This document shows positions 2,723-31,138 of a stretch of DNA of 48,120 bases, piece after piece (the stretch's first letter is position 1; the number at the start of each line of letters is the position of its first letter). This DNA comes from a virus, in the IMG/VR virus record IMGVR_UViG_3300021963_006145, positions 1 through 48,120 of that record; one strand, 5' to 3'. The notes under the pieces are model-generated. The model worked only from the letters and a program-made list of their open reading frames with translations. It searched no databases and was not told where the DNA came from. Both the position numbers and the translations under genes were made by a program.

Positions 2723-3154
2723 ATGATAATTTGGCTAACAGGACAACCAGGCGCAGGAAAAACAACGCTAGCGGAGTGGTTAAAAGCACACTACTACAAC
2801 AACGGAATCATTATTGATGGCGATGATATTAGAGACGTATATCAGAACAAAGATTATTCCGAAGAGGGTAGGAGAAAGAATATAGAAAAAGCACAAGATT
2901 TAGCTTTGTTCTTACATCATAAGAACTTCACACCAATAGTATCATTGGTTTCCCCATATAGAGATCAACGAGAATCTTTTAAGCAAAGAATGGGAAATAA
3001 CATTAAAGAGATTTACGTTCACACGTTAAATATTAGGGGTAGAGAACAGTTTCATGTTCAAAATTATGAACCACCAATTGAAAATTATATTGATGCGGAC
3101 ACAACAAATGAAGATCAATATCTTTCCTTCCAAAAAATTAAAAAATACCTATAA
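2723..3154 (+). CDS. cysC: Adenylylsulfate (APS) kinase
   Basis: A 143-residue protein that would phosphorylate APS to PAPS, the sulfate donor for sulfotransferases. Visible motifs: P-loop GQPGAGKTT (residues 7-15), DGDDIR (32-37, substrate-binding), GRRKNIEKAQDLA (the region equivalent to ERRENIRR), and VSPYRDQR (76-83). ATG 2723 is preferred; an in-frame TTG at 2693 would add ten residues upstream of the beta strand that leads into the P-loop. It is slightly shorter than bacterial CysC (about 170-200 residues). A nucleotidyltransferase and a DUF2061 protein follow immediately, and four sulfotransferases lie within the next 10 kb, so PAPS use is local. Confidence 0.85.
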   Translation: MIIWLTGQPGAGKTTLAEWLKAHYYNNGIIIDGDDIRDVYQNKDYSEEGRRKNIEKAQDLALFLHHKNFTPIVSLVSPYRDQRESFKQRMGNNIKEIYVHTLNIRGREQFHVQNYEPPIENYIDADTTNEDQYLSFQKIKKYL

Positions 3155-3157
3155 ATT

Positions 3158-3568
3158 ATGAGCAAAAAGTACGCCTTGTACATCGGAAGATGGCAAAATT
3201 GGCACAAAGGACACGAATGGTTAATTAACCAACAATTAGAAAAGGGTAAAGATATCTGGGTGGCTATTAGAAATGTCCCAACAGATGAAAATAATCCCAA
3301 AACGGCACAACAAGTAATGATGGATTTATCTGAAGAGAAGTTCTTTAGAGATAATGCGCAGAGAATTCAAATATCAATTATACCAGATATCGAATCTGTT
3401 AATTATGGTCGAGGAGTTGGGTACGAAGTTATTTACCACGAACCACCTAAAGAAATTGAAAAAATAAGTGGGACCGCAATTAGAAAAAAATATATTGATT
3501 CTAATGGGGATTCAATTGTATATAATATTGAAAAAAATGATAGTAGAGAGGAAGAGACACATAGCTAA
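3158..3568 (+). CDS. HxGH nucleotidyltransferase (cytidylyl/adenylyltransferase-like)
   Basis: A 136-residue protein of the HIGH-type nucleotidyltransferase fold: YIGRWQNWHKGHEWLI (residues 8-23) matches the GRFQPFHxGH nucleotide-binding loop, and ISGTAIRKKY matches the ISxTxIR phosphate-binding motif near the C-terminus. Relatives include NMN adenylyltransferase and phosphopantetheine adenylyltransferase. It begins 3 nt after the APS kinase stop. A role in making APS or another activated intermediate is suggested by position, but it is not a classical ATP sulfurylase, so NAD metabolism is an equally fair reading. The DUF2061 gene starts inside its 3' end. Confidence 0.7.
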   Translation: MSKKYALYIGRWQNWHKGHEWLINQQLEKGKDIWVAIRNVPTDENNPKTAQQVMMDLSEEKFFRDNAQRIQISIIPDIESVNYGRGVGYEVIYHEPPKEIEKISGTAIRKKYIDSNGDSIVYNIEKNDSREEETHS

Positions 3569-3755
3569 AACAATCTCATATAGAGTGATAAGTACATTAA
3601 TTGGTTTTATCATAATGTGGTGGGTAAGCGGGTCAATTAAAGTTGGTGCCGCTTTTGGTGTTGCTGAATTGGTATATAAACCCATACAATATTATTTACA
3701 TGAAAGAATTTGGTATAAATGGATTAAGTATGGTCTAAATAAAAAAGATTTATAA
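3537..3755 (+). CDS. DUF2061 membrane protein
   Basis: A 72-residue protein with the DUF2061 layout: a basic N-terminus (ERKRHIAKTISYR), a membrane segment (VISTLIGFIIMWWVSG), a second weaker segment, and the characteristic YYLHERIWYKW near the end. The start is taken at ATG 3537 because the conserved family begins there; an upstream in-frame ATG at 3468 would lie deep in the preceding gene. It overlaps the nucleotidyltransferase gene by 32 nt. From general knowledge, DUF2061 genes are often found near sulfate-activation genes, so the neighbourhood agrees. Its biochemical role is not known. Confidence 0.8.
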   Translation: MIVERKRHIAKTISYRVISTLIGFIIMWWVSGSIKVGAAFGVAELVYKPIQYYLHERIWYKWIKYGLNKKDL

Positions 3756-4304
3756 ATGGAAAAACTACACACTTATGAAAACTTCTTAACAATAGAGGAA
3801 TGTGAATCAATTTTAAAGAAATATAGAAACGAGTTAGAACTAAAACCTGGTTTGGTTGGTAGTAATGACGCTAATGCTAGAAAGTCTTCAGTTGCTTTTA
3901 TTGATAACATAGATATAATTGATGATAAGTTAAAAGAATGTTTAAGAAATTTGATTCGTGTAAAAGGGTTTGAAGTTACTGGTTTGGGACCATATCAATT
4001 TACGGAGTACAAGACTGGAGAATATTATGATTGGCACACCGATTCTAAAAAGACCGGAGAAACTAAAAATAGATTTGTTTCTATAGTTATACAATTGAAT
4101 GATGAATATGAAGGGGGTTATCTCCAATTAAAAGATGAGAGTGGCGATAATACTATTCAGCTTGATAAGGGTATTGGTACAATGTATATATTTTATTCAA
4201 ATATAAGACATAGAGTGATGCCGGTAACGAGTGGAACAAGATATTCACTAGTTAATTGGGTTTCACTTAAAGAGATAGAAAATTTTAAAAAGACACTTAT
4301 ATAA
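3756..4304 (+). CDS. 2OG-Fe(II) oxygenase (prolyl-4-hydroxylase-like)
   Basis: A 182-residue 2-oxoglutarate/Fe(II) dioxygenase that begins directly after the DUF2061 stop. The iron ligands are visible: HTD in YYDWHTDSKK and the distal His in RHRVMPV, with the 2OG-binding Arg in SGTRYSLVNW. EYEGGYLQL is a family landmark. The fold should end at NWVSL, yet a 14-residue tail continues to KKTLI-stop, the first occurrence of the C-terminal ending shared through 13568. The stop overlaps the next ATG by one base (TAATG). The likely reaction is hydroxylation of a protein side chain or small molecule; the substrate is unknown. Confidence 0.85.
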   Translation: MEKLHTYENFLTIEECESILKKYRNELELKPGLVGSNDANARKSSVAFIDNIDIIDDKLKECLRNLIRVKGFEVTGLGPYQFTEYKTGEYYDWHTDSKKTGETKNRFVSIVIQLNDEYEGGYLQLKDESGDNTIQLDKGIGTMYIFYSNIRHRVMPVTSGTRYSLVNWVSLKEIENFKKTLI

Positions 4305-5071
4305 TGCTCATAGATAATAAATTTTTATTTGTTTCTCTACCAAGAAGGGCATCTACGTCTTTTCATTTTACTTGTTTATTAAATGGTTTAGATGTAAAAA
4401 ATATTGGCCCGATAGATTGGAGTATTAATAATTCAAAAATTGACTTTAATACTATAGATGAGTCAAATATTATGGATTATATATCACATGGACATGAAAA
4501 AATTGTTGATTTAAAAAAAAAATATGGTAATTCATATCCAATAATATCAATACACAGAAACAGACATGAATCTTTTTATTCTTATTTTAAACATTTAATT
4601 TTTGACTTAGAAAGAGCCGGATTCCCTGAAATTTCAAAACATTTTTCAGAGATATCAGCAAGAGATTTGTTTTTTTTTGATACAAATGATTTAAAATCAT
4701 CAGTTACTAGATATGAAAAAATTATAAGTTATCTTTATAATAATGACTTAATAAAAAATAAAACATATATACTACCAAGTGATTTATCACTTAATACTGA
4801 AGGATATGTTATAAATGTTATAGATATATTATTAACACCAATGGCACATTGGCATAATAATGATAAAGAAATAACTTGGTTTGATATAAATGATTTAACA
4901 AAATTAGAAAATTGGGTATCGAATATAACTAAAAAAACTTTTAAATTAAAAAAGTTAAATTCGAACGATAAAATAGAATGTAAATTAGAATTAAACGATG
5001 AGTTTATACACTATTATAATACTGTTTATGATTATTATGATTTACCTAAAATTGAAAAAACATTAATATAA
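4304..5071 (+). CDS. Sulfotransferase family protein
   Basis: A 255-residue PAPS-dependent sulfotransferase-like protein. The 5'-phosphosulfate loop is LPRRASTSFHF (residues 12-22) and the 3'-phosphate-binding region is ISIHRNRHESFYSYFKH (about 81-97, Arg and Ser in the expected order). It is a close paralogue of the gene at 6923: both have similar N-termini, a PMAHWHN / PLSHYHN segment, WFDI and an LExWVS helix. It ends in IEKTLI, overlapping the next ATG by one base. It would move sulfate from PAPS to a hydroxyl or amine on an unknown acceptor; the APS kinase at 2723 could supply PAPS. Confidence 0.8.
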   Translation: MLIDNKFLFVSLPRRASTSFHFTCLLNGLDVKNIGPIDWSINNSKIDFNTIDESNIMDYISHGHEKIVDLKKKYGNSYPIISIHRNRHESFYSYFKHLIFDLERAGFPEISKHFSEISARDLFFFDTNDLKSSVTRYEKIISYLYNNDLIKNKTYILPSDLSLNTEGYVINVIDILLTPMAHWHNNDKEITWFDINDLTKLENWVSNITKKTFKLKKLNSNDKIECKLELNDEFIHYYNTVYDYYDLPKIEKTLI

Positions 5072-6285
5072 TGAAAAATATTGTAATAGTTGGTGGTGGA
5101 ACTGCTGGGTGGTTGAGTGCGTTTTTTTTAAAAAGAAAATATCCTAATTATAATGTTACTTTAATTGAAAGTACAGTAATCGGCATTCTAGGCGCTGGAG
5201 AAGGGGGCACACCAAATCTTAAATCGATTATTGTTGATGATTTTGGCTTTAATGAAGAAGAATTTTTAGAAAAAGTTAATGGAACCAAAAAATACGGTAT
5301 TATTTTTGACAAGTGGCATAATGATTTAAATCATTCTTTCGTACATGGGTTTGGTTATGATGGTTTAGAAAATGATTTATATTCATATCATTTTAACGCT
5401 CGTTTATTCGCTGAGTTTTTAAAAACCAAAAGTCTGGAAAGGGGGGTAAACCACATAGATGCTGAAATATCTGAATTCATTAATGTCGATAATAATATTA
5501 ACACAATAGTTTTAAATTGTGGTAATAAAATAGTTTCGGATTTTGTATTTGATTGCTCTGGATTTTCTAGATTAATTATCGGTAAATTATATAAAACAAA
5601 ATGGAATTCTTATGAAGATGAGCTATTAATTAATTCCGCTTTACCATTTTTTATAAACAAACCAAATAAGGAGATTAATCAAAGAACCATTGCTGAAGCA
5701 ATTGACTATGGATGGATGTGGAAAATACCCCTTCAAGATAGATGGGGTTGTGGATATCTATATAACGATCAGATGGTTGATGACAAAAAAATTGCTTCTG
5801 AAATCTCAAGATTATATTCAAATGAGAGTATAACGATTAACAAAAAGATCAAATTTAATGCTGGGGCATACGAAAATGTTTGGGTAGAAAATAGTTTGGC
5901 AATTGGATTATCCAGTGGATTTTTAGAACCGCTAGAAGCAACATCAATAATGACAATTATATATCAATTAAGACATTTACCAGAAGATATATTTGATTAT
6001 TCAAAAAGAGATGAGTACAATCATAATGTTAATAGATACAATTATCAAAACATGATGTTTTTACGCCATCATTATAATTGTTCCAGAAATGATACCATTT
6101 TCTGGAAAACATATCGTGGTAAAAAAATACCTCTAATATTGGAAAAAGTTTATTCAAAACTTAATACTCAAGAACAGATTTTGGATGTGTTTGATATAGT
6201 TGGTAATATGGTGACATTTACTAAAGAACAGTATACACACATTTTGAATAATAATTTTTTAAAAAAGGAAAAAACATTAATATGA
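5071..6285 (+). CDS. Flavin-dependent tryptophan-halogenase-like protein
   Basis: A 404-residue FAD protein of the PrnA/RebH type. It shows the FAD loop GGGTAGW (residues 8-14), AGEGGTPNL, the diagnostic WMWKIP, and GFLEPLEATSI with a Glu at the position of the PrnA catalytic Glu. NGTKKYGIIFDKW aligns with the catalytic-Lys segment, so Lys74 may be the halogenating lysine. It is about 130 residues shorter than PrnA, so halogenation is plausible but another FAD oxidation is possible. It needs a flavin reductase, not seen here. Trp-halogenase-like genes are known in some marine T4-like phages. It ends in KEKTLI and overlaps the next gene by 4 nt (ATGA). Confidence 0.85.
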   Translation: MKNIVIVGGGTAGWLSAFFLKRKYPNYNVTLIESTVIGILGAGEGGTPNLKSIIVDDFGFNEEEFLEKVNGTKKYGIIFDKWHNDLNHSFVHGFGYDGLENDLYSYHFNARLFAEFLKTKSLERGVNHIDAEISEFINVDNNINTIVLNCGNKIVSDFVFDCSGFSRLIIGKLYKTKWNSYEDELLINSALPFFINKPNKEINQRTIAEAIDYGWMWKIPLQDRWGCGYLYNDQMVDDKKIASEISRLYSNESITINKKIKFNAGAYENVWVENSLAIGLSSGFLEPLEATSIMTIIYQLRHLPEDIFDYSKRDEYNHNVNRYNYQNMMFLRHHYNCSRNDTIFWKTYRGKKIPLILEKVYSKLNTQEQILDVFDIVGNMVTFTKEQYTHILNNNFLKKEKTLI

Positions 6286-6923
6286 CACCGCCTAAAGAAA
6301 TTGTGTTTAGTCCATCTTTGTCAATATGGAAGTCAACATTTGATATAACAAATAAAGATAAAATGCTAACGGAATGTGAAGATCTAATAAAAAGAATGTC
6401 AAAAGTTAGTACTGATGGTTATGCGTATTATATAAATAATAAATTAGATTACAAAAACCATATTGCAGTTGAAATAAAAAATGTGTTAGATCAATTAATG
6501 ATAGACGGTCTGAATGCGTGTATTGAATTGTTTGATGAACCATTTAATGAACTTAAAACTGACGTATGGGTAAATGTTGTTAGATTCAAAGATCCAGTAC
6601 AAAAGAATTATAAAAAAGATGGTTCATTGGTGTTTCATAATCATGTTGATTTAAATATAGCAAATAAACTACCACCCCCATTTTATACCTTTGTTTGCTA
6701 CATACAGATGCCAAATAATTTAAGCGGGGACGATGGGGTACTATTTATGGAAGATGTAGACCACAAGATCTACTCTATATTACCCGAAGATGGTGATATA
6801 ATAATAATGAAGGGGGATCTTCCGCATGTACCCAATTACGCACCAAATTCAAATAAAGATAGAATAGTTTTAGCTGGTAGTGTTCGCATGGATCTATCAA
6901 AACAAACCAAAAGTTTAATATAA
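6282..6923 (+). CDS. 2OG-Fe(II) oxygenase-like protein
   Basis: A 213-residue protein with a 2OG oxygenase core: FHNHVDLN supplies the HxD pair, GDGDIIIMKGDLPHVPNYAP the distal His, and NKDRIVLAGSVR the Arg that binds 2-oxoglutarate. It belongs to the group with short phage oxygenases of the YYI/FVCYIQMP type and is only distantly similar to the 3756 protein. It overlaps the halogenase stop (ATGA) and its own stop overlaps the next ATG. The last residues are QTKSLI, again the S/T-L-I ending. The substrate is not evident. Confidence 0.75.
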   Translation: MTPPKEIVFSPSLSIWKSTFDITNKDKMLTECEDLIKRMSKVSTDGYAYYINNKLDYKNHIAVEIKNVLDQLMIDGLNACIELFDEPFNELKTDVWVNVVRFKDPVQKNYKKDGSLVFHNHVDLNIANKLPPPFYTFVCYIQMPNNLSGDDGVLFMEDVDHKIYSILPEDGDIIIMKGDLPHVPNYAPNSNKDRIVLAGSVRMDLSKQTKSLI

Positions 6924-7648
6924 TGTTAGTAGAAAATAAGTTTATATACCTAAATTTACCTAGATGTTCGTCAACATCTTTCCATATTGCGTGTCTTAAA
7001 AACGGGTTAGATATTAAATATTATGATGATATTATTCATACACTAAATCCCCCTAAAATTTCTGTAGATGCCGATAACGAATCAATCGCAGACAACTTAA
7101 CACACGCTCACGAACGAATTAAAAATTTAAAGAAAAAATTTGGTAACGATTTACCAGTTATTTCGGTCAGAAGAAACCCTTATGATAGGTACATCTCATT
7201 ATGGAAACACATAATTGATGAACTCTACAGGGTAAATGAAATGGAAACATTTAACATATTTAAATCATTAAAAATAGATGAATTAATGTGTTATACTGAA
7301 AACGATTTAGTTTCTAATGAGAGAAAATATGGCTGGATTAAAGAGTTTTTTAATAAAACCGGAGTAAAAAAAACAGGTCCATATGTTACGGCTATGATTT
7401 ATATGATGATAACCCCATTATCTCATTATCACAATCATGATACTTCAATAAAATGGTTTGATATAAGCAAACTTGACGAACTAGAAAAATGGGTTTCAGA
7501 CACTTTAATGATCGATTTTAAACTTGAAAAAATCAATTCAAGCCAACATTTTGAATGTTCTATTTTAAATGATGAGTATTTCAAAAAAAGGTACGATACC
7601 ATATATGGTAATTTTGACAACCCCAAAAGAATTAAAACATTGATTTAA
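6923..7648 (+). CDS. Sulfotransferase family protein (paralogue of 4304 gene)
   Basis: A 241-residue sulfotransferase-like protein with the PAPS loop LPRCSSTSFHI (residues 12-22) and the 3'-phosphate region ISVRRNPYDRYISLWKH. It aligns along its full length with the protein at 4304, so one probably arose from the other by duplication. It ends in RIKTLI. Its stop is followed by an 82-nt AT-rich gap with no start codon of another gene nearby, so here the shared C-terminal ending cannot be explained by overlap with a downstream start. The codons (aca ttg att) also differ from those used at 5071 and 6285. Confidence 0.8.
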   Translation: MLVENKFIYLNLPRCSSTSFHIACLKNGLDIKYYDDIIHTLNPPKISVDADNESIADNLTHAHERIKNLKKKFGNDLPVISVRRNPYDRYISLWKHIIDELYRVNEMETFNIFKSLKIDELMCYTENDLVSNERKYGWIKEFFNKTGVKKTGPYVTAMIYMMITPLSHYHNHDTSIKWFDISKLDELEKWVSDTLMIDFKLEKINSSQHFECSILNDEYFKKRYDTIYGNFDNPKRIKTLI

Positions 7649-7730
7649 TAAAATTATATATACATATATTTCATTAGAAATCTTTAAAATATTGTTTCTA
7701 ATATTTATATTTAATAATTAACAATACATT

Positions 7731-9218
7731 ATGAAGGGTACAATTATAGGAACCGATCTATTAGAAAAAAACGATTCGGTAGAAATTATAGAAATAAATA
7801 CAAACACAACCATTTTCAATGATGGTGCTGAATTGTTGGATTATGATCCGTTTTTTGCTGTTTTGGTAGCAAATGAAATAACAGAATTACATTTCATATA
7901 TACCGCTGGTAGTAGCTACTTACCATTAAATGCGGGTTCATTTGTATTTGAGGATAAATTAAAAGAAAAATGTTTGGAAAACAACATTACCTATTACCCT
8001 TACGTGGTTCCAGAAAGTTCAGTTACAGTACCATATATTGAGGACGCTGCTAATAAATTTATTTTAAGACAAGCATTTGATACAACTGCTCTAGTTGATG
8101 AAACCTATTGTGCTGACAAGTTTGAGTTCGCTAATTTAATGAGTGGCTCAACTTATTTTCCAAAAACGTTTTTTAATGACATATCATTAGGTATGGATAC
8201 AATAGATGAAATAAATTTATTGAATCCAAACCAACCAAACTATGTTATTAAATCTAAATCACCCGCATATTCTACTATGCAGTATCCTGAATTATATGAA
8301 TTAAGTACACAAGAGGAACTAGACACATTAAAAAATGAACTCGTAGTTGACCATTTTATTCAGGAATTCATTTATGATGAACAAAATGTTGTTGACGGTA
8401 GATGGAGTGTTATAAGAAGTATTGACATAATTTATGGTGGAGAATTAGATGTAATTAATATGGGTGGGTATAAACAAAGTACAATAATACCATTAAATTT
8501 TTCGTCTAATGAATTTATTGAGGGTACTAAAAAGTACAATCAAAAAACCAGATACAAATACATAAACAAACAATTGGGTAATTTCGCAACAATAGATTAT
8601 CATGTTGATGACGATACAATGATATTAAGTTACACAGGTACACTTGTAGATGTTGATACTATACAACTGGGTGATTATGTTAAATCAATAGATTTCACTG
8701 ATTTAAGTGGATTTTCAATAAACGATGCTGAATCTATAACCACATTCGGCTGGGATGGCACGGTAGCAAAAACTGTTGAAAGTTTATCAGAGGTACAGTC
8801 AACACTTGTTGGAAAACGAAGTGTGTCAGTAGATACTATTTTTATACAAATAACACTAGAAAACGGTTTAACCTGGGACGACTCACCTTCCGCAACTTAT
8901 TATTTTGAAGAAGATGGATTATCATCTACTAGGTGGGATAAGGTTAATAACATGCGTGTTGGTGATAAATTAGTTGTTAGAAATAATACTACAAACCAAC
9001 TAGAAACAATAAGAATTAGTAACTTAGAAATGGTTCATGCGCAAAAAACCATTTATGATTTAGATTTTGAGGATTCTGATTTATTTTTAGTCGATATTGG
9101 AAATGGTTTATTTGGTATAATGCACAACTCCTGTTGGTGTTGTTATAATCCGTGTGGTCATTGGTGTTGTTCAAATTATTGCCCTACTTGCGACCAAACA
9201 CCATTACCTAAACTTTAA
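7731..9218 (+). CDS. ATP-grasp-like protein fused to a Hint (intein-like) domain and a Cys-rich tail
   Basis: A 495-residue three-part protein. Residues 1-280 look like an ATP-grasp enzyme: DKFEFANLM, FPKTFF, NYVIKSKS, VDHFIQEFIY and GRWSVIRSIDIIYGGEL follow the usual order. Residues 290-466 look like a Hint domain: block-A-like DDDTMILS...TIQLGDYVKSID (291-321), WDKVNNMRVGDKLVV, then block F/G IYDLDFEDSDLFLV...GIMHNS ending with His465-Asn466-Ser467. The usual first Cys is replaced by His291 and the TxxH of block B is not seen, so normal splicing is unlikely; C-terminal Asn cleavage could still release the tail. Residues 467-495 hold eight Cys. It has no L/I tag. Domain calls are by motif reading. 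Confidence 0.65.
   Translation: MKGTIIGTDLLEKNDSVEIIEINTNTTIFNDGAELLDYDPFFAVLVANEITELHFIYTAGSSYLPLNAGSFVFEDKLKEKCLENNITYYPYVVPESSVTVPYIEDAANKFILRQAFDTTALVDETYCADKFEFANLMSGSTYFPKTFFNDISLGMDTIDEINLLNPNQPNYVIKSKSPAYSTMQYPELYELSTQEELDTLKNELVVDHFIQEFIYDEQNVVDGRWSVIRSIDIIYGGELDVINMGGYKQSTIIPLNFSSNEFIEGTKKYNQKTRYKYINKQLGNFATIDYHVDDDTMILSYTGTLVDVDTIQLGDYVKSIDFTDLSGFSINDAESITTFGWDGTVAKTVESLSEVQSTLVGKRSVSVDTIFIQITLENGLTWDDSPSATYYFEEDGLSSTRWDKVNNMRVGDKLVVRNNTTNQLETIRISNLEMVHAQKTIYDLDFEDSDLFLVDIGNGLFGIMHNSCWCCYNPCGHWCCSNYCPTCDQTPLPKL
9129..9215 (+). other. Predicted releasable 29-residue Cys-rich peptide
   Basis: This is the segment after the predicted Hint cleavage point (HN|S). It has eight cysteines in 29 residues (protein positions 468, 470, 471, 475, 479, 480, 484, 487) plus a His at 477, arranged around SCWCCYNPCGHWCC and CPTC. 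The spacing would suit disulfides, metal binding or enzymatic thiol/Trp modification; two Trp residues are present. Whether it is cleaved, modified or merely a metal-binding tail is not shown by sequence. Confidence 0.4.
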
Positions 9219-9242
9219 AAAAAATATATAAAAAAAATAGAT

Positions 9243-9383
9243 ATGGCACAGAATAAAAGAGTAGAAAGACCAGCAAATACAATAAAAGCTAACATTACCC
9301 CGTTAAGCTCCAGCCTTAAAACTAAGGTAGCATCTGCATTTCAGTCAGTTGTAAATAAGATTAAAGAAAAACATTTATCATAA
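9243..9383 (+). CDS. 46-residue basic peptide of unknown function
   Basis: A small gene from ATG 9243 (MAQNKRVERPANTIKANI) to TAA 9381, preceded by the A-rich stretch aaaaaaatatataaaaaaaataga. The product is basic, with a Pro/Ser-containing middle (TPLSSSLKTK) and an amphipathic C-terminal helix (VASAFQSVVNKIKEKH). It has no Cys, Trp or Tyr. It lies 24 nt after the ATP-grasp/Hint gene and 8 nt before an SGNH hydrolase gene, inside the modifying-enzyme block. It may be a peptide substrate, a leader-like peptide or a small structural protein. Its reality is supported by start context and snug fit between neighbours. Confidence 0.55.
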   Translation: MAQNKRVERPANTIKANITPLSSSLKTKVASAFQSVVNKIKEKHLS

Positions 9384-9391
9384 TGTAATTT

Positions 9392-10213
9392 ATGAAGTTA
9401 CTTACTTTTGGTGACAGTTGGACTGAAGGAGTAGGTGGTAATCTTGAAGAGGAGAAAAAAACTGAAATACCCGAAGAAAGAACGAGCATAAGACAAGAAT
9501 ACTGCTGGCCCAAACACTTATCAAAATTACTTAATTGTGAATTTAAAAATAACGGTGTAGGTGCGTTTTCAAATAATGCAATATTCAACACAGTTTGTTA
9601 TCAATTAAAAAACGAAATCATCACTTCAGATGATTTTGTTGTTATTATGTGGTCCTCATCTTTAAGAGATCAATTACCATTTTTCCCAAGCGAAAACAAT
9701 TTTCATATTTGGGGTAAAAGATATAAAAGTAAACAACATTTGTTTAAATATATTTTTGACGGTGTTGCTGGTGATAATGCAAAATACAATAGAGCAGAGA
9801 AAAACTTCAGGGATTACTATATTAGTAATTTGTTTAACGAAACCTACTACGATATTGTAAATCAAAACTACATTTTACACCTACAATTTATGTTTAAAGA
9901 GTTGGGGATTAGGTATGTTTTTTGCGACGCATTTGATACAATCATTAATAAAAATATTGAGGATTCTTCAAATAAAACTCATTTGATTGATAGTGATAGG
10001 TACTGGGGTTATAGAAATAAAACAATGGCCAATTTATTAATTGACACAAAAAGAAAGGATGTGTGGGAAGACAACAATCATTGGGTAGATAGTACAGCTG
10101 GTAAACATCCAAGCGGCGTTGGTTATGAATTGATTGCTGATGAGCTATATAAATTTATAATTGATGGAGATCTATTGGTGCAGAATAAAACAAAAAATTC
10201 TTACTTAATATGA
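9392..10213 (+). CDS. SGNH/GDSL hydrolase-like protein with C-terminal tag
   Basis: A 273-residue SGNH hydrolase-like protein: GDSWTEG (residues 7-13) with the nucleophile Ser, NNGVGAFSNNAIF (Gly/Asn block), VIMWSSSLRDQ, and the Asp-His segment KHPSGVGYELIADELY near the end. The fold should finish at about ADELYKFI, but the chain continues for some 17 residues (IDGDLLVQNKTKNSYLI). Compared with the 2069 protein this tail is extra. It probably removes an ester group from a sugar or other acceptor. It overlaps the next 2OG oxygenase gene by 4 nt (ATGA). Confidence 0.75.
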   Translation: MKLLTFGDSWTEGVGGNLEEEKKTEIPEERTSIRQEYCWPKHLSKLLNCEFKNNGVGAFSNNAIFNTVCYQLKNEIITSDDFVVIMWSSSLRDQLPFFPSENNFHIWGKRYKSKQHLFKYIFDGVAGDNAKYNRAEKNFRDYYISNLFNETYYDIVNQNYILHLQFMFKELGIRYVFCDAFDTIINKNIEDSSNKTHLIDSDRYWGYRNKTMANLLIDTKRKDVWEDNNHWVDSTAGKHPSGVGYELIADELYKFIIDGDLLVQNKTKNSYLI

Positions 10214-10776
10214 ACTATAGCATAAATAATGGTTTTTGTGATCGCGAAGTGGCTAAAGATATAATCAACTTCTGTCTTGAGTTCGGTGAACCATTTTCAT
10301 ATAACCCATCTGAAAATTGGGACTGTAGAAGAATTTATGAACCAGAATTTAAAAAAAGAATAATTGATTTACTAACAAACAATTATAAAAACGGAGACTA
10401 TAAATTGTGGTTTGATTATTCAACATTTAATTTAAAAAACTTTAATATTAGCCTAACATCGTACTATGATGGTAGGTATTTAAATCTTCATAAAGATAAA
10501 TCAAGTGAATTGACTACCGTTATTGTTCTATCTGATGATTTTGAAGGAGGTCAATTCGTATTAACAAACGAAGAAAACCCTCCTTATGATTTTGAAAACT
10601 TAAACGGATTGATGTTGTTTGACTTAAAATTAGGAGACAGCATTTCGTTTAATGGATCAGAAACCTTTCACGGGGTTTTGCCAGTAACGAAAGGTGTGAG
10701 ATATGCATTAAATGTTTGGATGACTGAAACTGATTTTAATTATCCTAAAATTAAAACTAGTAACACGCTGTTATGA
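10210..10776 (+). CDS. 2OG-Fe(II) oxygenase (prolyl-4-hydroxylase-like)
   Basis: A 188-residue 2OG/Fe(II) dioxygenase. Iron ligands: His and Asp in NLHKDKS, distal His in ETFHGVLPVTKGVRYALNVW with the Arg that binds 2-oxoglutarate. DDFEGGQFVL is the same landmark as EYEGGYLQL in the protein at 3756, of which this is a diverged paralogue. After NVWM it has a 19-residue tail ending SNTLL. Both ends overlap neighbours by 4 nt (ATGA), so translation is probably coupled across the SGNH, 2OG and sulfotransferase genes. Confidence 0.85.
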   Translation: MNYSINNGFCDREVAKDIINFCLEFGEPFSYNPSENWDCRRIYEPEFKKRIIDLLTNNYKNGDYKLWFDYSTFNLKNFNISLTSYYDGRYLNLHKDKSSELTTVIVLSDDFEGGQFVLTNEENPPYDFENLNGLMLFDLKLGDSISFNGSETFHGVLPVTKGVRYALNVWMTETDFNYPKIKTSNTLL

Positions 10777-11261
10777 GCATATTAATAATAGCATTACCAA
10801 GAACTGGATCAACCTCTTTATTATATAAATTAGCAAAAGAAAAGGGGTTAAAACCTTTGTTTGAACCATTTGATGGTAGTAACAGAGTTAGTTACAATAA
10901 TGAAAAAGATGTGGTGGTTAAAACAATATTATGTCATCATAATGATAATTTAGAATTGACTAAACAATTTGATGAAGTTATATTATTAACGAGAAAAAAT
11001 GTTTTGGAATGTGCGGAATCGCATTCTTATCAGACATATTTTTCAAAAAAGAAGAAATATAATTCAAACAAACCATATGTTTATGAAGAAGTACCATCTG
11101 AAGTATTTGAACTATGTTATAATGATATTGTAAAATGGAATAAAGATATTAATGAACTATCAGTAAAACTAGATATACCAATCACATATTATGAAGACAT
11201 ATTCGATAAAGATAGTGAAGAAAGACTACGAATGATTGGTAAAAAAAGAAGTATTATATAA
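10773..11261 (+). CDS. Small sulfotransferase-like protein
   Basis: A 162-residue protein with a sulfotransferase-type PAPS loop near its N-terminus (LPRTGSTSLLYKLA, residues 8-21) and a 3'-phosphate-like region VILLTRKNVLECAESHSY. It is shorter than the 4304 and 6923 proteins and belongs to a different branch, closer to the Stf0/nodH-like compact type. ITYYEDIF resembles the YEDL-type segment of this group. It ends KKRSII, overlapping the next ATG by one base. Function as a PAPS-dependent transferase is inferred; the P-loop-like motif is clear. Confidence 0.7.
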   Translation: MSILIIALPRTGSTSLLYKLAKEKGLKPLFEPFDGSNRVSYNNEKDVVVKTILCHHNDNLELTKQFDEVILLTRKNVLECAESHSYQTYFSKKKKYNSNKPYVYEEVPSEVFELCYNDIVKWNKDINELSVKLDIPITYYEDIFDKDSEERLRMIGKKRSII

Positions 11262-12328
11262 TGAAAATAGATTTAAAAGAATACGTTTGTACGGTTCCAT
11301 TTCAAGCACTCGAAATACATGAAAACAAAAATTTTATGTGTTGTGCTAGTTGGCTAAAAAAAGAATTACCGAAAAACGTCCCATTAGAAACATTATGGAA
11401 TTCCGATGAAGCTATTGAAATAAGAAAATCTGTTATTGACGGTTCCTACCGACACTGTGATAAAACCCAGTGTCCGTTTTTATCCAAGCTGGTTAATCTA
11501 AACGTGAGCAACCTTGGACCCATTAAACATATTAACCAGTTAGATGATGATATTAAAAAATATTATGAACAACAAGAGGGTTATATGTCTGAGGGGCCAA
11601 AGATTATACAAATGTCTTTTGATAGAACATGTAATTATAAATGCCCATCATGTAGAGTTGATATGATTGTTGCAAACACTGATAAGATAAAGAAAATTAA
11701 TTTAACAATTGAAGAAATTGAAGGAGCATATTCCGATTCAATAGAGACAATCTATTGTTCTGGTACCGCAGATCCATTTGCTTCGGTTTCTTATAGAAAT
11801 TTTTTAAGAAATTTTGATCCAACAAAATACCCCAATTTAAAGACAATCCATTTACACACTAACGCTAGCTTATGGAATCAAGAGATGTGGGATAGTATGC
11901 CAAATATTCACAAATATGTTAAGACATGTGAAATAAGTATAGATGCTGGAACTAAACATACGTACGAAAATGTGACTAGATTGGGTGGTAACTGGGATAA
12001 CTTGATATCTAATTTAAAATTTATCTCAACAATACCAACAATGAAATATGTAAAATGTTCTTTTGTTGTTCAACAAACAAACTACAATGAAATGGAAGAT
12101 TTTGTGAGTTTAATTTACGGGATTTTCGGTAGTAAAACAAAGGTATTCTTTGGTAAGATAACCAACTGGGGTACGTTTAGTGAAGAAACATTTAAAATAC
12201 TAAAGATCTGGGATGAGAATCATCCTGAGTATTCTTTATTTATTAATAAATTAAATAAAATTGCACTAAATCCGTATGTGTTTCATAATATGTATGAATT
12301 GATTGACATAAAACAAAGTATAATATAA
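11261..12328 (+). CDS. Radical SAM protein with N-terminal Cys-rich (SPASM-like) region
   Basis: A 355-residue protein with the radical SAM cluster motif CNYKCPSC (Cys124, 128, 131; CxxxCxxC). Before it lies a Cys-bearing region (FMCCASW at 26-31, HCDKTQCPF at 66-73) that resembles an auxiliary-cluster module placed N-terminally. SGTADPFAS takes the place of the GGEP motif and HLHTNASLW the place of the later strand. Such proteins modify peptides or small molecules through a deoxyadenosyl radical. It ends in IKQSII and its stop overlaps the next ATG. It is unrelated in sequence to the radical SAM protein at 23710 beyond the core. Confidence 0.8.
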   Translation: MKIDLKEYVCTVPFQALEIHENKNFMCCASWLKKELPKNVPLETLWNSDEAIEIRKSVIDGSYRHCDKTQCPFLSKLVNLNVSNLGPIKHINQLDDDIKKYYEQQEGYMSEGPKIIQMSFDRTCNYKCPSCRVDMIVANTDKIKKINLTIEEIEGAYSDSIETIYCSGTADPFASVSYRNFLRNFDPTKYPNLKTIHLHTNASLWNQEMWDSMPNIHKYVKTCEISIDAGTKHTYENVTRLGGNWDNLISNLKFISTIPTMKYVKCSFVVQQTNYNEMEDFVSLIYGIFGSKTKVFFGKITNWGTFSEETFKILKIWDENHPEYSLFINKLNKIALNPYVFHNMYELIDIKQSII

Positions 12329-12999
12329 TGACAAGGATTTGGACCTTTGGCGATAGCTATACCGCATCATATGCTCCGTACCCAAATTCAAATGATTGGA
12401 GAAATAAGTATTGTGATTGGAAGGGGTATGTACCAAAAGTTTATGGTGATATTATATCCGAAACACTGGGTATGCCACTTAAGAATCTTGGCCGTGGCGG
12501 AACAGATAATAGATGTATATTAGATTCTATTATTGATTCTTTGAATTTTATTAAAGAAGATGACATTATTATCGTGGGATGGACTAGCCACATAAGATTT
12601 AGAATGGTAAACAAACATAATAATTTTCAAGGGGTTTTACCTAGTACAATATTAATCCCATATAAAAATATAGATTTTGATGTGAGTCAATCCACTATTG
12701 AAGAAATGTTGGTACACAGATCGCATGTAAATTATGTTAAAGAACATAATAAAATAATTAAATTGGTTGATCATTTGTTTAAAAAGAATGTTTTAATCCA
12801 ATGGTCGCCCTTTTATATGAACAACTCTGAAGATGGTATGAAAGTTGAAAACATAATTTTACCAATCACCACTATTAGAGACGAAACAGACGGAGAAATA
12901 AACGATGGTCATTTTTCAGAAAAAACACAAAGAGAGGTTGCAGAAAAGTTATTAGCAATATTAGATAAAGGTGGAAGTATAAGCAATAAATTAATATGA
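12328..12999 (+). CDS. SGNH/GDSL hydrolase-like protein with C-terminal tag (close relative of 2069 protein)
   Basis: A 223-residue SGNH hydrolase-like protein: GDSYTASY (nucleophile Ser10), RGGTDNRC, VGWTSHIRFRM and a C-terminal Asp-His motif (NDGHFSEKTQREVAEKLL). YCDWKGYVPK matches YCDFKGYVPK of the protein at 2069, and the two align over their lengths. The 2069 protein stops at the end of the last helix, while this one adds a linker-like DKGGSIS and then NKLI. This is the clearest comparison showing the tag as an add-on. It overlaps the following sulfotransferase gene by 4 nt (ATGA). Confidence 0.8.
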   Translation: MTRIWTFGDSYTASYAPYPNSNDWRNKYCDWKGYVPKVYGDIISETLGMPLKNLGRGGTDNRCILDSIIDSLNFIKEDDIIIVGWTSHIRFRMVNKHNNFQGVLPSTILIPYKNIDFDVSQSTIEEMLVHRSHVNYVKEHNKIIKLVDHLFKKNVLIQWSPFYMNNSEDGMKVENIILPITTIRDETDGEINDGHFSEKTQREVAEKLLAILDKGGSISNKLI

Positions 13000-13568
13000 T
13001 TTATACAATAATTGCAGAAGGTAGAAGTGGTAGCCAGAATTTATTAAACTGGTTTTCTGTTGCATTACCAAACTTCGAAGCGATTCACGAACCCTTTAAC
13101 CCAGAAGAAACAAGATATACACAAGACATTAGTGGGAACGATATTTCTTGGATAACACCCAACAAAAACTATATAATAAAAGAACTTTGGCACACAGATA
13201 GGAATTTTAGCCCGTTGATTGAAAAAAGTAACAAAATAATATGCTTGTACAGGGAAAACTGGTTTGAACAAGTCAGTTCATTATTATATGCATTTAAAAC
13301 AAATAAGTGGCATTCAAAATATACGGTAGAGAGATTAAGGGAAACCATTTCAGAGGGGGAAATATTGGATTATTATGAAAATATCCAGAAAGATGTTAAA
13401 GAAAAATTTCAAAATTTTATTAAAGAAAGGGGATTAAACTCTATTACATATGAAGATCTATACTTAGGTCAGGGCATTTATGATATTAAAGACCATTTTA
13501 ATATTGAAACCGACCATATATTCCCATTCAGCGGTCGTTACCTAACCAAAGACAATCCCTTAATATAA
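12996..13568 (+). CDS. Sulfotransferase-like protein
   Basis: A 190-residue protein with an N-terminal PAPS-loop-like motif IIAEGRSGSQNLLNWF (residues 5-20) and a 3'-phosphate-like region IICLYRENWFEQVSSLL; SITYEDLY is the segment common to compact sulfotransferases. It is the last gene of the enzyme block. It ends in KDNPLI, with no gene starting at its stop; the fibre gene begins 54 nt later. So at this end too the shared C-terminal ending is independent of any overlapping start codon. Confidence 0.7.
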   Translation: MIYTIIAEGRSGSQNLLNWFSVALPNFEAIHEPFNPEETRYTQDISGNDISWITPNKNYIIKELWHTDRNFSPLIEKSNKIICLYRENWFEQVSSLLYAFKTNKWHSKYTVERLRETISEGEILDYYENIQKDVKEKFQNFIKERGLNSITYEDLYLGQGIYDIKDHFNIETDHIFPFSGRYLTKDNPLI

Positions 13569-18763: not shown

Positions 18764-19897
18764 ATGCTAAGAGAAAACGTTGAAGTAAGTGGATCATTAA
18801 ATGTAAGTGGGCAATATATCATACCTAGAGGGCCTAGAGCAAATAGACCAACTAGCCCCGATATTGGTTCATTATATTTAGAGGAGTCTACTAGTGGAAG
18901 TTTTGTTGTAACATATACCGCATCATCCAACTATGATGCTGGATGGGAACCAGTTGGTTCACAAGATACCGATAGAACTGGTTTCAAATATAGACAAGTA
19001 ATTAATTTTTCTTATTTAGCTGGCGGTTATAAAGACGCGTCCCCTTGGAAAAATGTTCATAGAACAACTAATGCAACAGATCAAACTGTTCACTTAGGAG
19101 AATTGATGGATTACCCAGCATCTTATACATCGGGTGCTTGTAGTAAATCAATATTATTTGTTTGGTCAACAAACACAGATGGCGCGTGGAAATCGGCAAC
19201 ACAAATACATTCTACATGGACAACAGGTGTTCATATGGTTAATGAAACAGCATATGCTCACCAATCAAAATGGGATTTAGCAAATGCTAGAGACGACTTA
19301 GGAACGTTGTTTCAAGAAACAGAGTTCGCTTGGGTTTTTGGCGGCGGTGTTGCGACCGTTGAGAAATTCAATTTAACAAATGAAACAATGTATAGTGTAT
19401 ACTACCAAGCAGGTGCTCCATATATTACAACAACAACGTCTTTAACAAGTAGTTTAGGTGCGTCTGGATTCTCTGATGAAAATTATGGTTATGGTTATGG
19501 ATCGGAGAGTGGAAATAAATTATTCTTTGCAAATGATACATTTACTGCAAATCAACAATGGGGGGCTAGTGGTCAACAAAAGGGGATTAGTTCTAAAGTA
19601 GGAAAGGGTTATGCTGGGAATGAGGGAAACTATAATGGAGGTTATAACTTAAGAAGATGGAATGTTTTCACAGAAACCAATATTGGTAACGTCGCTAAAC
19701 CTCACGGTAACTGCGGAGAAGAAAATTTTACTATGGGACAAGACCATCAGTATATGCTAGGGAATTATGATGGTTTACAAAATAACACAAGTTGGAAATT
19801 TATTTATTCAACAGACACGGGAACTGTTAACCCATCTGGTTTAGCTCCGGGAGTTAATGGGGGAACATCATCTGGACATTGTGGTTGGAGAACATAA
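18764..19897 (+). CDS. Receptor-binding / tail-tip-like protein, paralogue 1
   Basis: A 377-residue protein, first of three tandem relatives. The N-terminus MLRENVEVSGSLNVSG echoes the SGSL attachment motif of the giant fibre; then come GPRANRPTSPDIGSLYLEESTSGSF and a C-terminal domain rich in Gly, Trp and aromatic residues (KGISSKVGKGYAGNEG, YNLRRW, CGEENFTMGQDHQYMLGNYDG). It ends SSGHCGWRT. The shared N-terminal piece looks like a docking module and the C-terminal part like a surface-exposed tip. The cysteines in NCGEEN and HCGW are kept in all three copies. Role in host binding is inferred from position. Confidence 0.7.
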   Translation: MLRENVEVSGSLNVSGQYIIPRGPRANRPTSPDIGSLYLEESTSGSFVVTYTASSNYDAGWEPVGSQDTDRTGFKYRQVINFSYLAGGYKDASPWKNVHRTTNATDQTVHLGELMDYPASYTSGACSKSILFVWSTNTDGAWKSATQIHSTWTTGVHMVNETAYAHQSKWDLANARDDLGTLFQETEFAWVFGGGVATVEKFNLTNETMYSVYYQAGAPYITTTTSLTSSLGASGFSDENYGYGYGSESGNKLFFANDTFTANQQWGASGQQKGISSKVGKGYAGNEGNYNGGYNLRRWNVFTETNIGNVAKPHGNCGEENFTMGQDHQYMLGNYDGLQNNTSWKFIYSTDTGTVNPSGLAPGVNGGTSSGHCGWRT

Positions 19898-19915
19898 AAA
19901 TTGTATTTATAAGAT

Positions 19916-21022
19916 ATGCTACACGAAAATATAGAAATAAGTGGGTCTTTAAAAGGACAAGGGGTAACAAAGCCACCAATAGGAACAAGAGCTAATAGAC
20001 CAGGTAGCCCACAAACGGGTTCTTTATATCTAGAACAAGCTGCTAGTGGTAGTTTTTTAATGGTTTATATTGGTGTAAGTAATAACGATAGTGGTTGGGT
20101 TAGAGTATCATCCCAAGTAAATGCCAATGTTAGTTTTAAATTCAGACAGATAATAAGTACATCTTTTTTAGCGGGTGGTTATAAAGACTCATCTCCTTGG
20201 AAAAATGTTCACAAAACGATTAACTCAACCGATCAAACAACACACATTGGTGAGTTATTGGATTTTCCTGCAACATATACATCGGGCGCTTGTAGTAAAT
20301 ATATCTTTTTTGTTTGGTCTGTTAATAATGATAATGCGTTTAAAGGACCCTCTGATGTACATAGTGTTAGAACTTCAGCTATTAATATGGCAAATGACAC
20401 AAAATATGCTCATAATACTAAATTTGATATAACAACCGCTAGAGGTGATTTGGGTACAATGCATAAAGAAACTGAAATCGCCTATATGTTTACTGGTGGT
20501 AGCTCTACCGTTGAAAGATTTGATTTAAGTACAGAAACAATTTCAACTGGGTTTAATTTAACAACAATTAATGGTAGTGATGGTGGTTCAGCATTTTCTG
20601 ACGAAAACTTTGGTTATGGTTGGACATCTTCAGCGGGTATTAAAATGAGTTTTGCTACTGAAACAATTGAATCATCTACTCAATGGGGGGCACATTCACA
20701 ACAAAAAGGTATTAGTTCAAAAGTGGGAAAAGGTTATGCGGGAAACGAAGGTAACTATGCTGGTGGTTATAACCTAAGACGTTGGAGTAACGCTAATGAC
20801 ACCAACATAGGTAACGTGGCAAAGCCACATCCAAACTGCGGTGAAGAAAATTTTACACTAGGACAAGACCATCAATATATGTTAGGAAATTATGATGGCG
20901 CACAAAATAATACAAGTTGGAAATTCTTCTATGCAACAGACACAGGAACAACCAGTGTTAGCGGATTAAATCCTGGTGTAAATGCTGGGACATCATCGGG
21001 CCATTGCGGATGGAGAGCATAA
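19916..21022 (+). CDS. Receptor-binding / tail-tip-like protein, paralogue 2
   Basis: A 368-residue paralogue starting 18 nt after copy 1. It keeps the N-terminal MLHENIEISGSL, GTRANRPGSPQTGSLYLEQ, the SFLAGGYKDSSPWKNVHKT core, YAGNEGNYAGGYNLRRW, PHPNCGEENFTLGQDHQYMLGNYDG and SSGHCGWRA. The middle part (about residues 120-250), around EIAYMFTGGSSTVERFDLS, differs most from copy 1 and may be the variable surface. There is no promoter-like box before it, so it is probably read through from copy 1. Confidence 0.7.
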   Translation: MLHENIEISGSLKGQGVTKPPIGTRANRPGSPQTGSLYLEQAASGSFLMVYIGVSNNDSGWVRVSSQVNANVSFKFRQIISTSFLAGGYKDSSPWKNVHKTINSTDQTTHIGELLDFPATYTSGACSKYIFFVWSVNNDNAFKGPSDVHSVRTSAINMANDTKYAHNTKFDITTARGDLGTMHKETEIAYMFTGGSSTVERFDLSTETISTGFNLTTINGSDGGSAFSDENFGYGWTSSAGIKMSFATETIESSTQWGAHSQQKGISSKVGKGYAGNEGNYAGGYNLRRWSNANDTNIGNVAKPHPNCGEENFTLGQDHQYMLGNYDGAQNNTSWKFFYATDTGTTSVSGLNPGVNAGTSSGHCGWRA

Positions 21023-21036
21023 AAATAATTTAAATT

Positions 21037-22146
21037 ATGATATACGAGAATTTAGAAGTTAGTGGTAGTTTAACATCGGATAGAGTTATCAATAGACCAC
21101 CTAAAGGAACTAGAGCAAATAGACCAGGTTCACCATTATCCGGATCTTTATATTTAGAAGAATCCAACAGTGGTAGTTTTTTAATGTTATATACCGGAGT
21201 ATCAAATATTGATAATGGATGGGAAAGAATTGCGGCACAAGAACCTGTACCAATTGCATTTAAATATAGACAAATTTTAGCATATACATATTTGGCCGGA
21301 GGATATAAAGACTCATCTCCATGGAGAAACGTACATAAAACAACAAACTCAACGAGTCAAACAACACACATCGGCGAGTTGTTGGATTATCCAGTATCTT
21401 ATACATCCGGAGCATGTAATAGAACAATATTATTCATTTGGTCAGTAAACGACGACGGAGCTTGGAAAGGTCCAGATTCTATTCATGGAACTAGAACATC
21501 GGCCATCAACATGTTTAATGATACAAACTATGCGCATCAAACAAAGTTTAATACTGGAACAGCTAGAAGTGACGTCGCTACCATGCAAAAAGAAACTGAA
21601 TTTGCTTATTTAATTTCAGGAGGTTCTACTTCAATTGAAAAATTTAATTTATCAAATGAAAGTTATGTAAGTGGATTTGGGGTAACATCTATTAATGGTT
21701 CTGACGGAGGTGGTGCGTTTTTTGATGAAAGTTTTGGATATGCTTGGACATCAAGTGCGGGTATTAAATTTAATTTTTCGAACGAAACACCAAGCTCTTC
21801 TACTCACTGGTCAGCACATGCTCAACAAAAGGGAATCAGTTCTAAGGTGGGTAAAGGTTACTGTGGTAACGAAGGTTCCTACAACGGTGGTTACAATTTA
21901 AGAAGATGGAGTAATGCCACAGATACAAACATTGGCAACGTAGCAAAACCACATCCAAATTGTGGCGAGGAAAACTTTGCAATGGGGCAAGATTGGCAAT
22001 ATATGTTAGGAAATTATGATGGCACTGGTCAAAATAACAGTAGTTGGCAATTTGTTTATGCGACCGATACTGGTTCAAACGCCGTTACTGGACTAGCACC
22101 TAGAGTTAATAATGGAACATCATCTGGACACTGTGGGTGGAGATAA
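21037..22146 (+). CDS. Receptor-binding / tail-tip-like protein, paralogue 3
   Basis: A 369-residue third copy starting 14 nt after copy 2. MIYENLEVSGSL, KGTRANRPGSPLSGSLYLEE, YLAGGYKDSSPWRNVHKT, GKGYCGNEGSYNGGYNLRRW and NCGEENFAMGQDWQYMLGNYDG are preserved, and it ends SSGHCGWR. One extra Cys (YCGNEG) replaces Ala of the other copies. Copies 2 and 3 are closer to each other than to copy 1 (shared SINGSDGG-type segment). All three could assemble on the same fibre as a mixed tip, or give alternative specificities. Confidence 0.7.
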   Translation: MIYENLEVSGSLTSDRVINRPPKGTRANRPGSPLSGSLYLEESNSGSFLMLYTGVSNIDNGWERIAAQEPVPIAFKYRQILAYTYLAGGYKDSSPWRNVHKTTNSTSQTTHIGELLDYPVSYTSGACNRTILFIWSVNDDGAWKGPDSIHGTRTSAINMFNDTNYAHQTKFNTGTARSDVATMQKETEFAYLISGGSTSIEKFNLSNESYVSGFGVTSINGSDGGGAFFDESFGYAWTSSAGIKFNFSNETPSSSTHWSAHAQQKGISSKVGKGYCGNEGSYNGGYNLRRWSNATDTNIGNVAKPHPNCGEENFAMGQDWQYMLGNYDGTGQNNSSWQFVYATDTGSNAVTGLAPRVNNGTSSGHCGWR

Positions 22147-28723: not shown

Positions 28724-29197
28724 ATGGAAAAAATTACATTAAAATTAGGTGACGTTCTACAATTAGAAAGTGAAATAAATGGTTATGTTGATCCACAATC
28801 TGGCGATCAGATCTACGAGGGTTTCACAAAACAAAACTTATCTATCATTTTGAAATATGAGTTAAGTGATTTTTCAACAACACTTAAAACCGAGAGAACC
28901 AAAATCGATTCATTGAGAGACGATTTAATTAAAAAGTATGGAGAAGATGATGGTAAGGGAGGTTTATGGGTAAAGATGCATAATGAAATGAAAGACGAAG
29001 AAGGTAATGTAATCGGAAAAGTCATTAATCCAAAGTATCTCGAATTTGATAAAGAGTATGGTACTCTTTTAAATCAAGAAATTGAACTTGAATACCCCGA
29101 AATTACCAAACAAGATCTAAAAGACGCGGGAAAAACAAAAGACAAATACATGGTCTTATTTAAATTAATTAAAAAAGAAAAAGAGGGAGCTAAATAA
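28724..29197 (+). CDS. Phage protein of unknown function
   Basis: A 157-residue, Lys/Glu-rich protein beginning MEKITLKLGDVLQLESEING. ATG 28724, after taaattat, is chosen; an upstream in-frame start at 28628 would lie within the permease gene and add 32 unlikely residues. The N-terminal half is beta-rich (ITLKLGDVL, QNLSIILKYEL) and the rest mixed. I do not recognise the family, but the acidic, loop-rich make-up is like small phage regulatory or structural proteins. It ends at a bidirectional terminator facing the minus-strand sugar cluster. Confidence 0.65.
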   Translation: MEKITLKLGDVLQLESEINGYVDPQSGDQIYEGFTKQNLSIILKYELSDFSTTLKTERTKIDSLRDDLIKKYGEDDGKGGLWVKMHNEMKDEEGNVIGKVINPKYLEFDKEYGTLLNQEIELEYPEITKQDLKDAGKTKDKYMVLFKLIKKEKEGAK

Positions 29198-29208
29198 GCT
29201 CCCTTTTT
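29185..29208. terminator. Bidirectional terminator between convergent genes
   Basis: GGGAGCT (29185-29191), loop AAATA, AGCTCCC (29197-29203), T-run 29204-29208; the opposite side has a long A-run (T-run on the minus strand). The stem overlaps the last codons of both the plus-strand gene at 28724 and the minus-strand glycosyltransferase gene, so one hairpin ends both units. Confidence 0.85.
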
Positions 29209-30296: not shown

Positions 30297-31138
30297 TACA
30301 AACTTTTAATATAATTTTCTAATTTATCCGTAGGTTTCCACCCTAATCTTTCAATAGCGTCATTGTTAATTCGTAACGTTTCTCTGTAGTTGCCCTTCAC
30401 ATCATTAACATATTCTAAAGGTGTATTAAACATTGATGCCACCTCATTTAAAGAATAGTTTTTTCCGGTACCTAATTCCCAAGCATCATGATGTCTTTCA
30501 TCACTCTCAGCTATTCTGATTAACCCATCCACAATATCATCAATATGTGTAAAATCTCTTCTCTGTTCACCATCTCCATGTATCTTAATTGGTTCACCTT
30601 TTTTGATTGCCGCTCTCCACAGACCAATTACAGCGGCCATATGAGAGTCTACTAATTCGCCAGGGCCATACACATTATAAAATCTAACTATTTCTGCGTT
30701 TAAATCAAATATAAGTTTTTCCATTTTAATCCATACTTCACCCATATACTTACTCATAGCATAAGGTGATAATTCTGGGTTATGATGTTTTGAAGATGAA
30801 CCCGAATATATCAATTTACATCCGTTTCTTTTTGCGTATCTGACAACTTCTTTAGTCCCATCAACATTAACTGAAAATGTTGTGTATGGATTTTTGAAAG
30901 ATGGTTGAATTCTACTTAATGCAGCTAAATGAAAAATACATGAATACGGTTTATCGTCTATATTATCCATTACTCTAATATCGCCACCCAAAAATTTAGA
31001 ATACGCGGGTATTTTAGCTTCTTTACCAATATATAAGTTATCGATAACATCTATTTCATAACCACCTCTTCTATGTAGTTCAGCAACCAATGCAGAACCT
31101 ATAAACCCACAACCACCAGTCACTAATACTTTTTTCAT
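30296..31138 (-). CDS. NAD-dependent sugar epimerase/dehydratase (extended SDR)
   Basis: A 280-residue extended short-chain dehydrogenase: TGGCGFIG (residues 7-14) for NAD(P), FHLAALSRI, SGSSSKH, the catalytic PYAMSK (Tyr-x-x-x-Lys), RFYNVYGPGE and GEQRRDFTHIDDIV for sugar nucleotide binding. It is most like UDP-glucose 4-epimerases or related dehydratases. It shares a 1-nt overlap with the downstream glycosyltransferase gene and a 4-nt overlap with the upstream one. It would make the nucleotide sugar used by these transferases. Confidence 0.85.
   Translation of the reverse strand: MKKVLVTGGCGFIGSALVAELHRRGGYEIDVIDNLYIGKEAKIPAYSKFLGGDIRVMDNIDDKPYSCIFHLAALSRIQPSFKNPYTTFSVNVDGTKEVVRYAKRNGCKLIYSGSSSKHHNPELSPYAMSKYMGEVWIKMEKLIFDLNAEIVRFYNVYGPGELVDSHMAAVIGLWRAAIKKGEPIKIHGDGEQRRDFTHIDDIVDGLIRIAESDERHHDAWELGTGKNYSLNEVASMFNTPLEYVNDVKGNYRETLRINNDAIERLGWKPTDKLENYIKSL

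Follow-up and report, generated by a model that had tools for sequence, protein, structure and literature searches.

A short C-terminal peptide with the consensus K-[ST]-[LI]-[LI]-COOH, or a close variant of it, is shared by the tailoring enzymes encoded in a gene island of the IMG/VR virus record IMGVR_UViG_3300021963_006145 (48,120 bases, 32% G+C; this whole stretch is referred to as the window). The ending is a protein-level motif, carried by about 15 mutually unrelated protein families in this and in related viral loci. It is tied to the island and to one untagged protein encoded within it (7731-9218, referred to as the central protein), and it forms an extension beyond the end of untagged halogenases. 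The ending, or tag, probably has some docking or recruiting function.

The shared ending and its distribution

The endings of the eleven enzymes encoded between 3756 and 13568 (KKTLI, EKTLI, EKTLI, TKSLI, IKTLI, NSYLI, SNTLL, KRSII, KQSII, SNKLI and DNPLI) were reproduced by translation exactly as an earlier note on this DNA had given them. The note had cautioned that Leu and Ile are common in an AT-rich genome, and that endings of this kind should not be equally frequent in other genes. A final [LI][LI] pair is found in all eleven enzymes of the block but in only 4 of the 47 other genes of the window (Fisher p 6e-9), and [ST][LI][LI]-COOH in 8 of the 11 against 1 of the 47 (p 7e-7). Two large contigs of related phages agree: the latter motif ends 6 of 12 proteins in the island versus 0 of 249 elsewhere on a contig of 237 kb, and 8 of 26 versus 2 of 282 on one of 287 kb. 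The tag is concentrated in the island, and this contrast, together with the ordinary synonymous codons used at the tag, answers the concern about AT-richness. The observation on the eleven enzymes is thus correct, and the note had even understated it. The same interval includes a twelfth gene, that of the central protein (end PLPKL), which it had omitted.

Related loci were fetched from IMG/VR via the halogenase, the radical S-adenosylmethionine (SAM) enzyme, the central protein, the sulfotransferase and the 2-oxoglutarate (2OG) oxygenase-like family 2OG6, and the proteins from about 150 of them, those fetched first, were clustered into families. The frequency of the tag by family is strongly bimodal. 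In about 15 unrelated families (and in one cluster of halogenase fragments) 75-100% of the members are tagged, in about 20 neighbouring families mostly 0-33% (close to 0% in the majority), and few families lie in between. The tagged families comprise 2OG oxygenases, sulfotransferases, the halogenase, SGNH hydrolases, radical SAM enzymes, a small Cys protein and others; since they are mutually unrelated, the paralogy of two sulfotransferases, raised in the note as a caveat, does not account for the pattern. Many of the tagged 2OG oxygenases are only 13-25% identical to the window copy. The same C-terminal peptide is therefore found on unrelated folds, as in a C-terminal address tag.

A position profile was made from 501 non-redundant C-terminal ends. 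The fourth-last residue is Lys in 57% and Asn in 17%, the third-last Thr in 31%, Ser in 28% and Lys in 17%, the second-last Leu in 77% and Ile in 19% (Leu, Ile or Val in about 98%), and the last Ile in 73% and Leu in 23%. In many apparent exceptions the last residue is Val, Met or Thr and the motif is otherwise intact (EKSLV, KTLM, KKTIV); in others, among them distant SGNH genes and a number of the short 2OG oxygenases, the motif is missing. While the profile strongly supports the shared C-terminal protein tag that had been proposed, it does not support the S/T-x-hydrophobic form bound by PDZ domains. PDZ ligands likewise have a free hydrophobic C-terminus, often with Ser or Thr as third-last residue, but their second-last residue is free in class 1, whereas here it is nearly always Leu or Ile and the third-last is Ser or Thr in only 59%. 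Moreover, no PDZ domain (PF17820, PF00595, PF13180) was found in 8 phage records, which are possibly fragments, with controls positive in 12-14 of 14 genomes. On these two grounds, binding by a PDZ protein of the phage is not supported.

The note had also argued that an effect of ribosome binding or of gene overlap cannot explain all cases, and this is borne out by the larger sample. The following start overlaps 283 of the 501 ends, and 82 have no start within 20 bases; the hydrophobic pair is kept in 95% of these 82, compared to 2.7% for internal [LI][LI] pairs. In a larger set of 750 ends, where no start lies within 25 bases, the choice of codons for Ile, Leu, Ser, Thr and Lys is about that of the respective gene bodies (for Ile, ATA/ATT/ATC are 0.41/0.54/0.05 at the tag and 0.47/0.44/0.09 in the gene body), and Ser is encoded from both codon families. 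Since the motif and ordinary synonymous codon usage persist where no start overlaps, selection appears to act on the protein, and from these ends we consider it practically certain that the ending is a protein-level tag. At stops overlapped by the following start, ATA makes up 94% of the Ile codons, so some effect of the DNA is present. The probability that the motif as such is an artefact at the DNA level, caused by translational coupling, recombination junctions or AT-rich composition, is nevertheless close to negligible, in view of the codons found where there is no overlap. As main cause, chance, AT-richness and overlap or coupling are ruled out by the non-overlapping ends and the island-versus-rest counts.

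All 21 halogenases that have the central protein in their locus are tagged. Where it is not in the locus, 54 halogenases carry no tag. Another 8 do, all of them from contigs of 4.1-7.2 kb, and the central gene may be located past the ends of these. The note had proposed an alignment with untagged cellular homologues; the one made here was for the halogenase, with untagged viral members. The untagged halogenases closest to the tagged ones end a few residues earlier, which makes the tag of the halogenase a short extension. Homologues that end alike would have spoken against a tag; the halogenase homologues of other viral loci end differently.

The central protein and its link to the tag

The central protein (7731-9218, plus strand; 495 amino acids) consists of an ATP-grasp-like N-terminal domain (residues 1-285), a Hint domain (about residues 290-466) up to a His-Asn pair, and a Cys-rich tail (SCWCCYNPCGHWCCSNYCPTCDQTPLPKL), as indicated by AlphaFold2, Foldseek and alignment. 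The AlphaFold2 model was built from 42 relatives and has a predicted local distance difference test score (pLDDT) of 81.6. In Foldseek the region of about residues 290-466 has the Hint fold of Hedgehog (1at0) and of a bacterial intein-like domain (2lwy), with E about 1e-8 and probability 1.00. The C-terminal His-Asn, which is shared with inteins, Hedgehog and bacterial intein-like domains, is invariant in 42 of 42 aligned members. Unlike these, the first Hint domain has no N-terminal Cys nucleophile, and inspection of the alignment revealed no conserved Cys, Ser or Thr at the expected site (consensus YHTDDDS). Only C-terminal cleavage is therefore expected, and a full-splicing intein was rejected for want of this nucleophile.

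The N-terminal domain modelled alone (pLDDT 87) has one clear match in the PDB, the gamma-glutamylcysteine synthetase 3k1t (E 3e-4, probability 1.00), which we take to be an ATP-grasp relative. No sequence family was matched above the cut-off, and a sequence search of the PDB with the central protein gave no match. An E-x-N motif, a Lys and an Arg are invariant in the domain. The location of E-x-N at residues 21-23, whereas it is normally found near the end of an ATP-grasp domain, suggests that the domain may be circularly permuted, in agreement with a weak match to CofF, in which residues 1-25 align with the C-terminal part of that protein.

The tail after His-Asn (e.g. S-CWCPWNYCGHWCNSWYCPSCSGGQSKL) is rich in Cys, Trp and Tyr, has an invariant Cys, and is present in most members. 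In loci L089 (1488-3365) and L090 (10001-11953) it is followed by a second Hint domain. The C-termini of the proteins of L354 (3284-5209) and L086 (10001-11695) resemble Peptidase_S74 (E 3e-4 and 0.02, respectively, both under the Pfam cut-off), an endosialidase chaperone domain typical of phage tail spikes, hinting at a possible role in the virion or fibre. Tails without Trp were found in three loci (L007, L008, L011), all of which lack the halogenase, the sulfotransferase-like family ST_A and 2OG6. CWCPW tails mostly accompany a halogenase, and CWC[ST]W tails mostly occur without one; as these loci are mutually related, the covariation is a lead only. Relatives of the central protein were found neither in 50,697 phage records nor, by a pattern scan, in 84,980 genomes.

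The tag set was defined by 188 loci of at least 12 kb, selected by the presence of the central protein, which is thus found in all 188, compared to none of 34 untagged halogenase loci. Across the 188 loci the families most tightly tied to the central protein are the tagged ones. Other untagged families reach 70, 65 and 53% of the tag loci at most, among them a nucleotidyltransferase-like protein (70%) and an adenosine 5'-phosphosulfate (APS) kinase (53%). No central protein was detected in tag islands L274, L280, L283, L298, L300 and L306, which belong to a divergent radical SAM clade and were fetched as stretches of 9.7-13.2 kb. Several tag loci without it end at a contig or locus edge, and L274 matches the longer L276, in which the central protein is present; L298, L300 and L306 are not explained in this way.

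Enzymes and neighbours of the island

All genes of the island are encoded on the plus strand. The first tagged enzyme (3756-4304, KKTLI) is a 2OG-Fe(II) oxygenase (PF13640, E 4e-18), the domain of which ends at residue 169 of 182. It is followed by a sulfotransferase-like protein of family ST_A (4304-5071, EKTLI), a paralogue of the protein encoded at 6923-7648 (IKTLI), which itself is a weak PF03567 match (E 4e-4, slightly short of the cut-off) and the stop of which is overlapped by no start. The ST_A family profile reached E 0.04 at best against heparan sulfate 2-O-sulfotransferase. Between the two paralogues lie a flavin-dependent (tryptophan) halogenase (5071-6285, EKTLI; PF04820, E 2e-88), with a conserved WxWxIP-type motif, and the 2OG6 protein (6282-6923, TKSLI; phrog_81, E 2e-8). 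The 2OG6 profile also matched 'Cake' designs in the PDB, over about 20 residues; these matches were judged to be artefacts.

Beyond the central gene, the SGNH-type hydrolases encoded at 9392-10213 (NSYLI; PF19547, DUF6071, E 7e-7; GDSW motif) and 12328-12999 (SNKLI; GDSY motif) belong to one family. So do the sulfotransferase-like ST_B proteins at 10773-11261 (KRSII; PRTGSTS motif, without a Pfam match) and 12996-13568 (DNPLI; no start overlaps its stop). The two others are a 2OG-Fe(II) oxygenase (10210-10776, SNTLL; PF13640, E 4e-9) and a radical SAM enzyme (11261-12328, KQSII) with an invariant CxxxCxxC and a match, under the cut-off, to the twitch radical SAM family NF033640 (E 1e-15). For two of the sulfotransferases, no relatives were found in cultured phages.

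The APS kinase (2723-3154, plus strand, end KKYL; PF01583, E 3e-18) and the nucleotidyltransferase-like protein (3158-3568, plus strand, end ETHS; a weak match to nicotinamide mononucleotide adenylyltransferase, E 2e-6, far below the cut-off) precede the island. The former likely activates sulfate for the sulfotransferases, and the two together perhaps supply 3'-phosphoadenosine 5'-phosphosulfate (PAPS). Both are untagged, and their families are mostly or wholly so, which suggests that the tag tends to be missing from enzymes with a likely small-molecule substrate. A small membrane protein (about 3537-3755), which presumably resembles DUF2061, often accompanies the island together with these two. 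Fibre-like genes are located directly 3' of the island in the window. Three paralogous fibre-like proteins (18764-22146) have the common C-terminus GHCGWR, in two of them extended by one residue (T or A). A cluster of glycosyltransferase- and epimerase-like genes lies on the minus strand (29190-34363), and its gene at 29190-30296 ends in KRELI.

Possible role of the tag

In the favoured reading, the free C-terminus of each tailoring enzyme would serve as a short linear motif for docking. Through it, oxygenases, sulfotransferases, halogenase, SGNH hydrolases and radical SAM enzymes, which differ in fold, would gather at one common partner and work successively on a substrate that they share. 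Most likely, this partner or substrate would be the central protein, the Hint domain of which could cleave after His-Asn and thereby free the modified Cys/Trp/Tyr-rich tail. We give this docking model about an even chance; the central protein, a candidate partner by co-occurrence, is itself about as likely to be the partner as not to be. The Cys-rich tail as a modified and released product is a tentative proposal. An assembly line for a peptide, in which the enzymes rather than the substrate carry the address and the tail is oxidised, halogenated and sulfated and then cut free by Hint or displayed on the virion, is possible but somewhat doubtful.

Several observations weigh against docking on the central protein. 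The tag is nearly constant where the central protein is very divergent (hidden Markov model E about 1e-30), so the receptor could be more conserved, and could even be a host protein. The halogenase tree needs just 2 changes of tag state, which do not amount to many independent events, and the co-occurrence of tag and central protein is, as judged from this tree, partly the result of shared ancestry; independent evidence for the tag comes from the many unrelated families that carry it. In L276 (3182-5920), of a divergent clade, three further tandem Hint domains replace the Cys-rich tail, and the Cys-rich peptide is hence not universal.

The constancy of the tag while the central protein diverges would fit enzymes that bind each other in a multi-enzyme complex, or that bind another phage or host scaffold. 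We regard this as unlikely, since no other untagged family shows a similar co-occurrence within 10 kb. A similarly low probability is given to a virion cargo signal, by which the enzymes would be packaged in the capsid or on the tail and act at or after infection. Such a signal would resemble the known C-terminal cargo peptides that gather unrelated enzymes, and is in line with the few Peptidase_S74-like C-termini and with the fibre-like genes after the island; on the other hand, there is no known capsid receptor, and sulfotransferases that would need PAPS and oxygenases that would need 2-oxoglutarate fit better with cytoplasmic chemistry. Several bacterial proteases recognise hydrophobic C-termini as degrons, and a host protease could read the ending and remove the enzymes in a coordinated way. 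The ending, however, is confined to the tailoring enzymes of a single island and goes with one phage protein, which a general degron is not expected to track; this reading is very improbable. An equally slim chance is left for ligation, in which the ATP-grasp domain would join the carboxylate of the tag to itself, to other enzymes or to a small molecule; ATP-grasp enzymes link a carboxylate to an amine, the motif is placed right at the C-terminus, and the likeness of the N-terminal domain to 3k1t and its invariant E-x-N, Lys and Arg would agree with such a reaction.

In recruitment by a docking tag, the closest parallels are the peroxisomal targeting signal PTS1 and the cargo-loading peptides of encapsulins, by which one short C-terminal peptide likewise sends unrelated enzymes to one place. 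These differ in sequence, there is no peroxisome here, and the phage tag has a candidate receptor only and is tied to the island and the central protein. Clusters for ribosomally synthesized and post-translationally modified peptides (RiPPs), such as the borosins, in which the precursor is fused to the enzyme (PMC8429565), and the graspetides, which are ATP-grasp RiPPs (PMC8939145), share with the island the pairing, in one protein, of an ATP-grasp-like domain with a candidate core peptide at the C-terminus, beside many tailoring enzymes. Unlike in those clusters, recognition seems to reside on the enzymes as a tag, a Hint domain within the same protein would carry out the putative release, and the system is phage-encoded and known from genes alone. 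Marine T4-like phages carry accessory 2OG oxygenases and a PrnA halogenase (PMC3037559). Their accessory enzymes are of the same families, but those sampled are untagged, e.g. the HTVC008M halogenase ends in HLPR. The combination described here was not found in the literature searched, with narrow queries.

Address tags themselves are an old idea, but no pathway is known to us whose tailoring enzymes belong to so many unrelated folds and yet share their four last residues. If the proposed role is true, the ending would be a portable tag for the construction of multi-enzyme pathways, and the tail would represent a new class of modified peptide from uncultivated phages. The tag islands belong to a little-known group of bacterial viruses, and recruitment of this kind would explain why phages have halogenases, sulfotransferases and many 2OG oxygenases of unexplained role.

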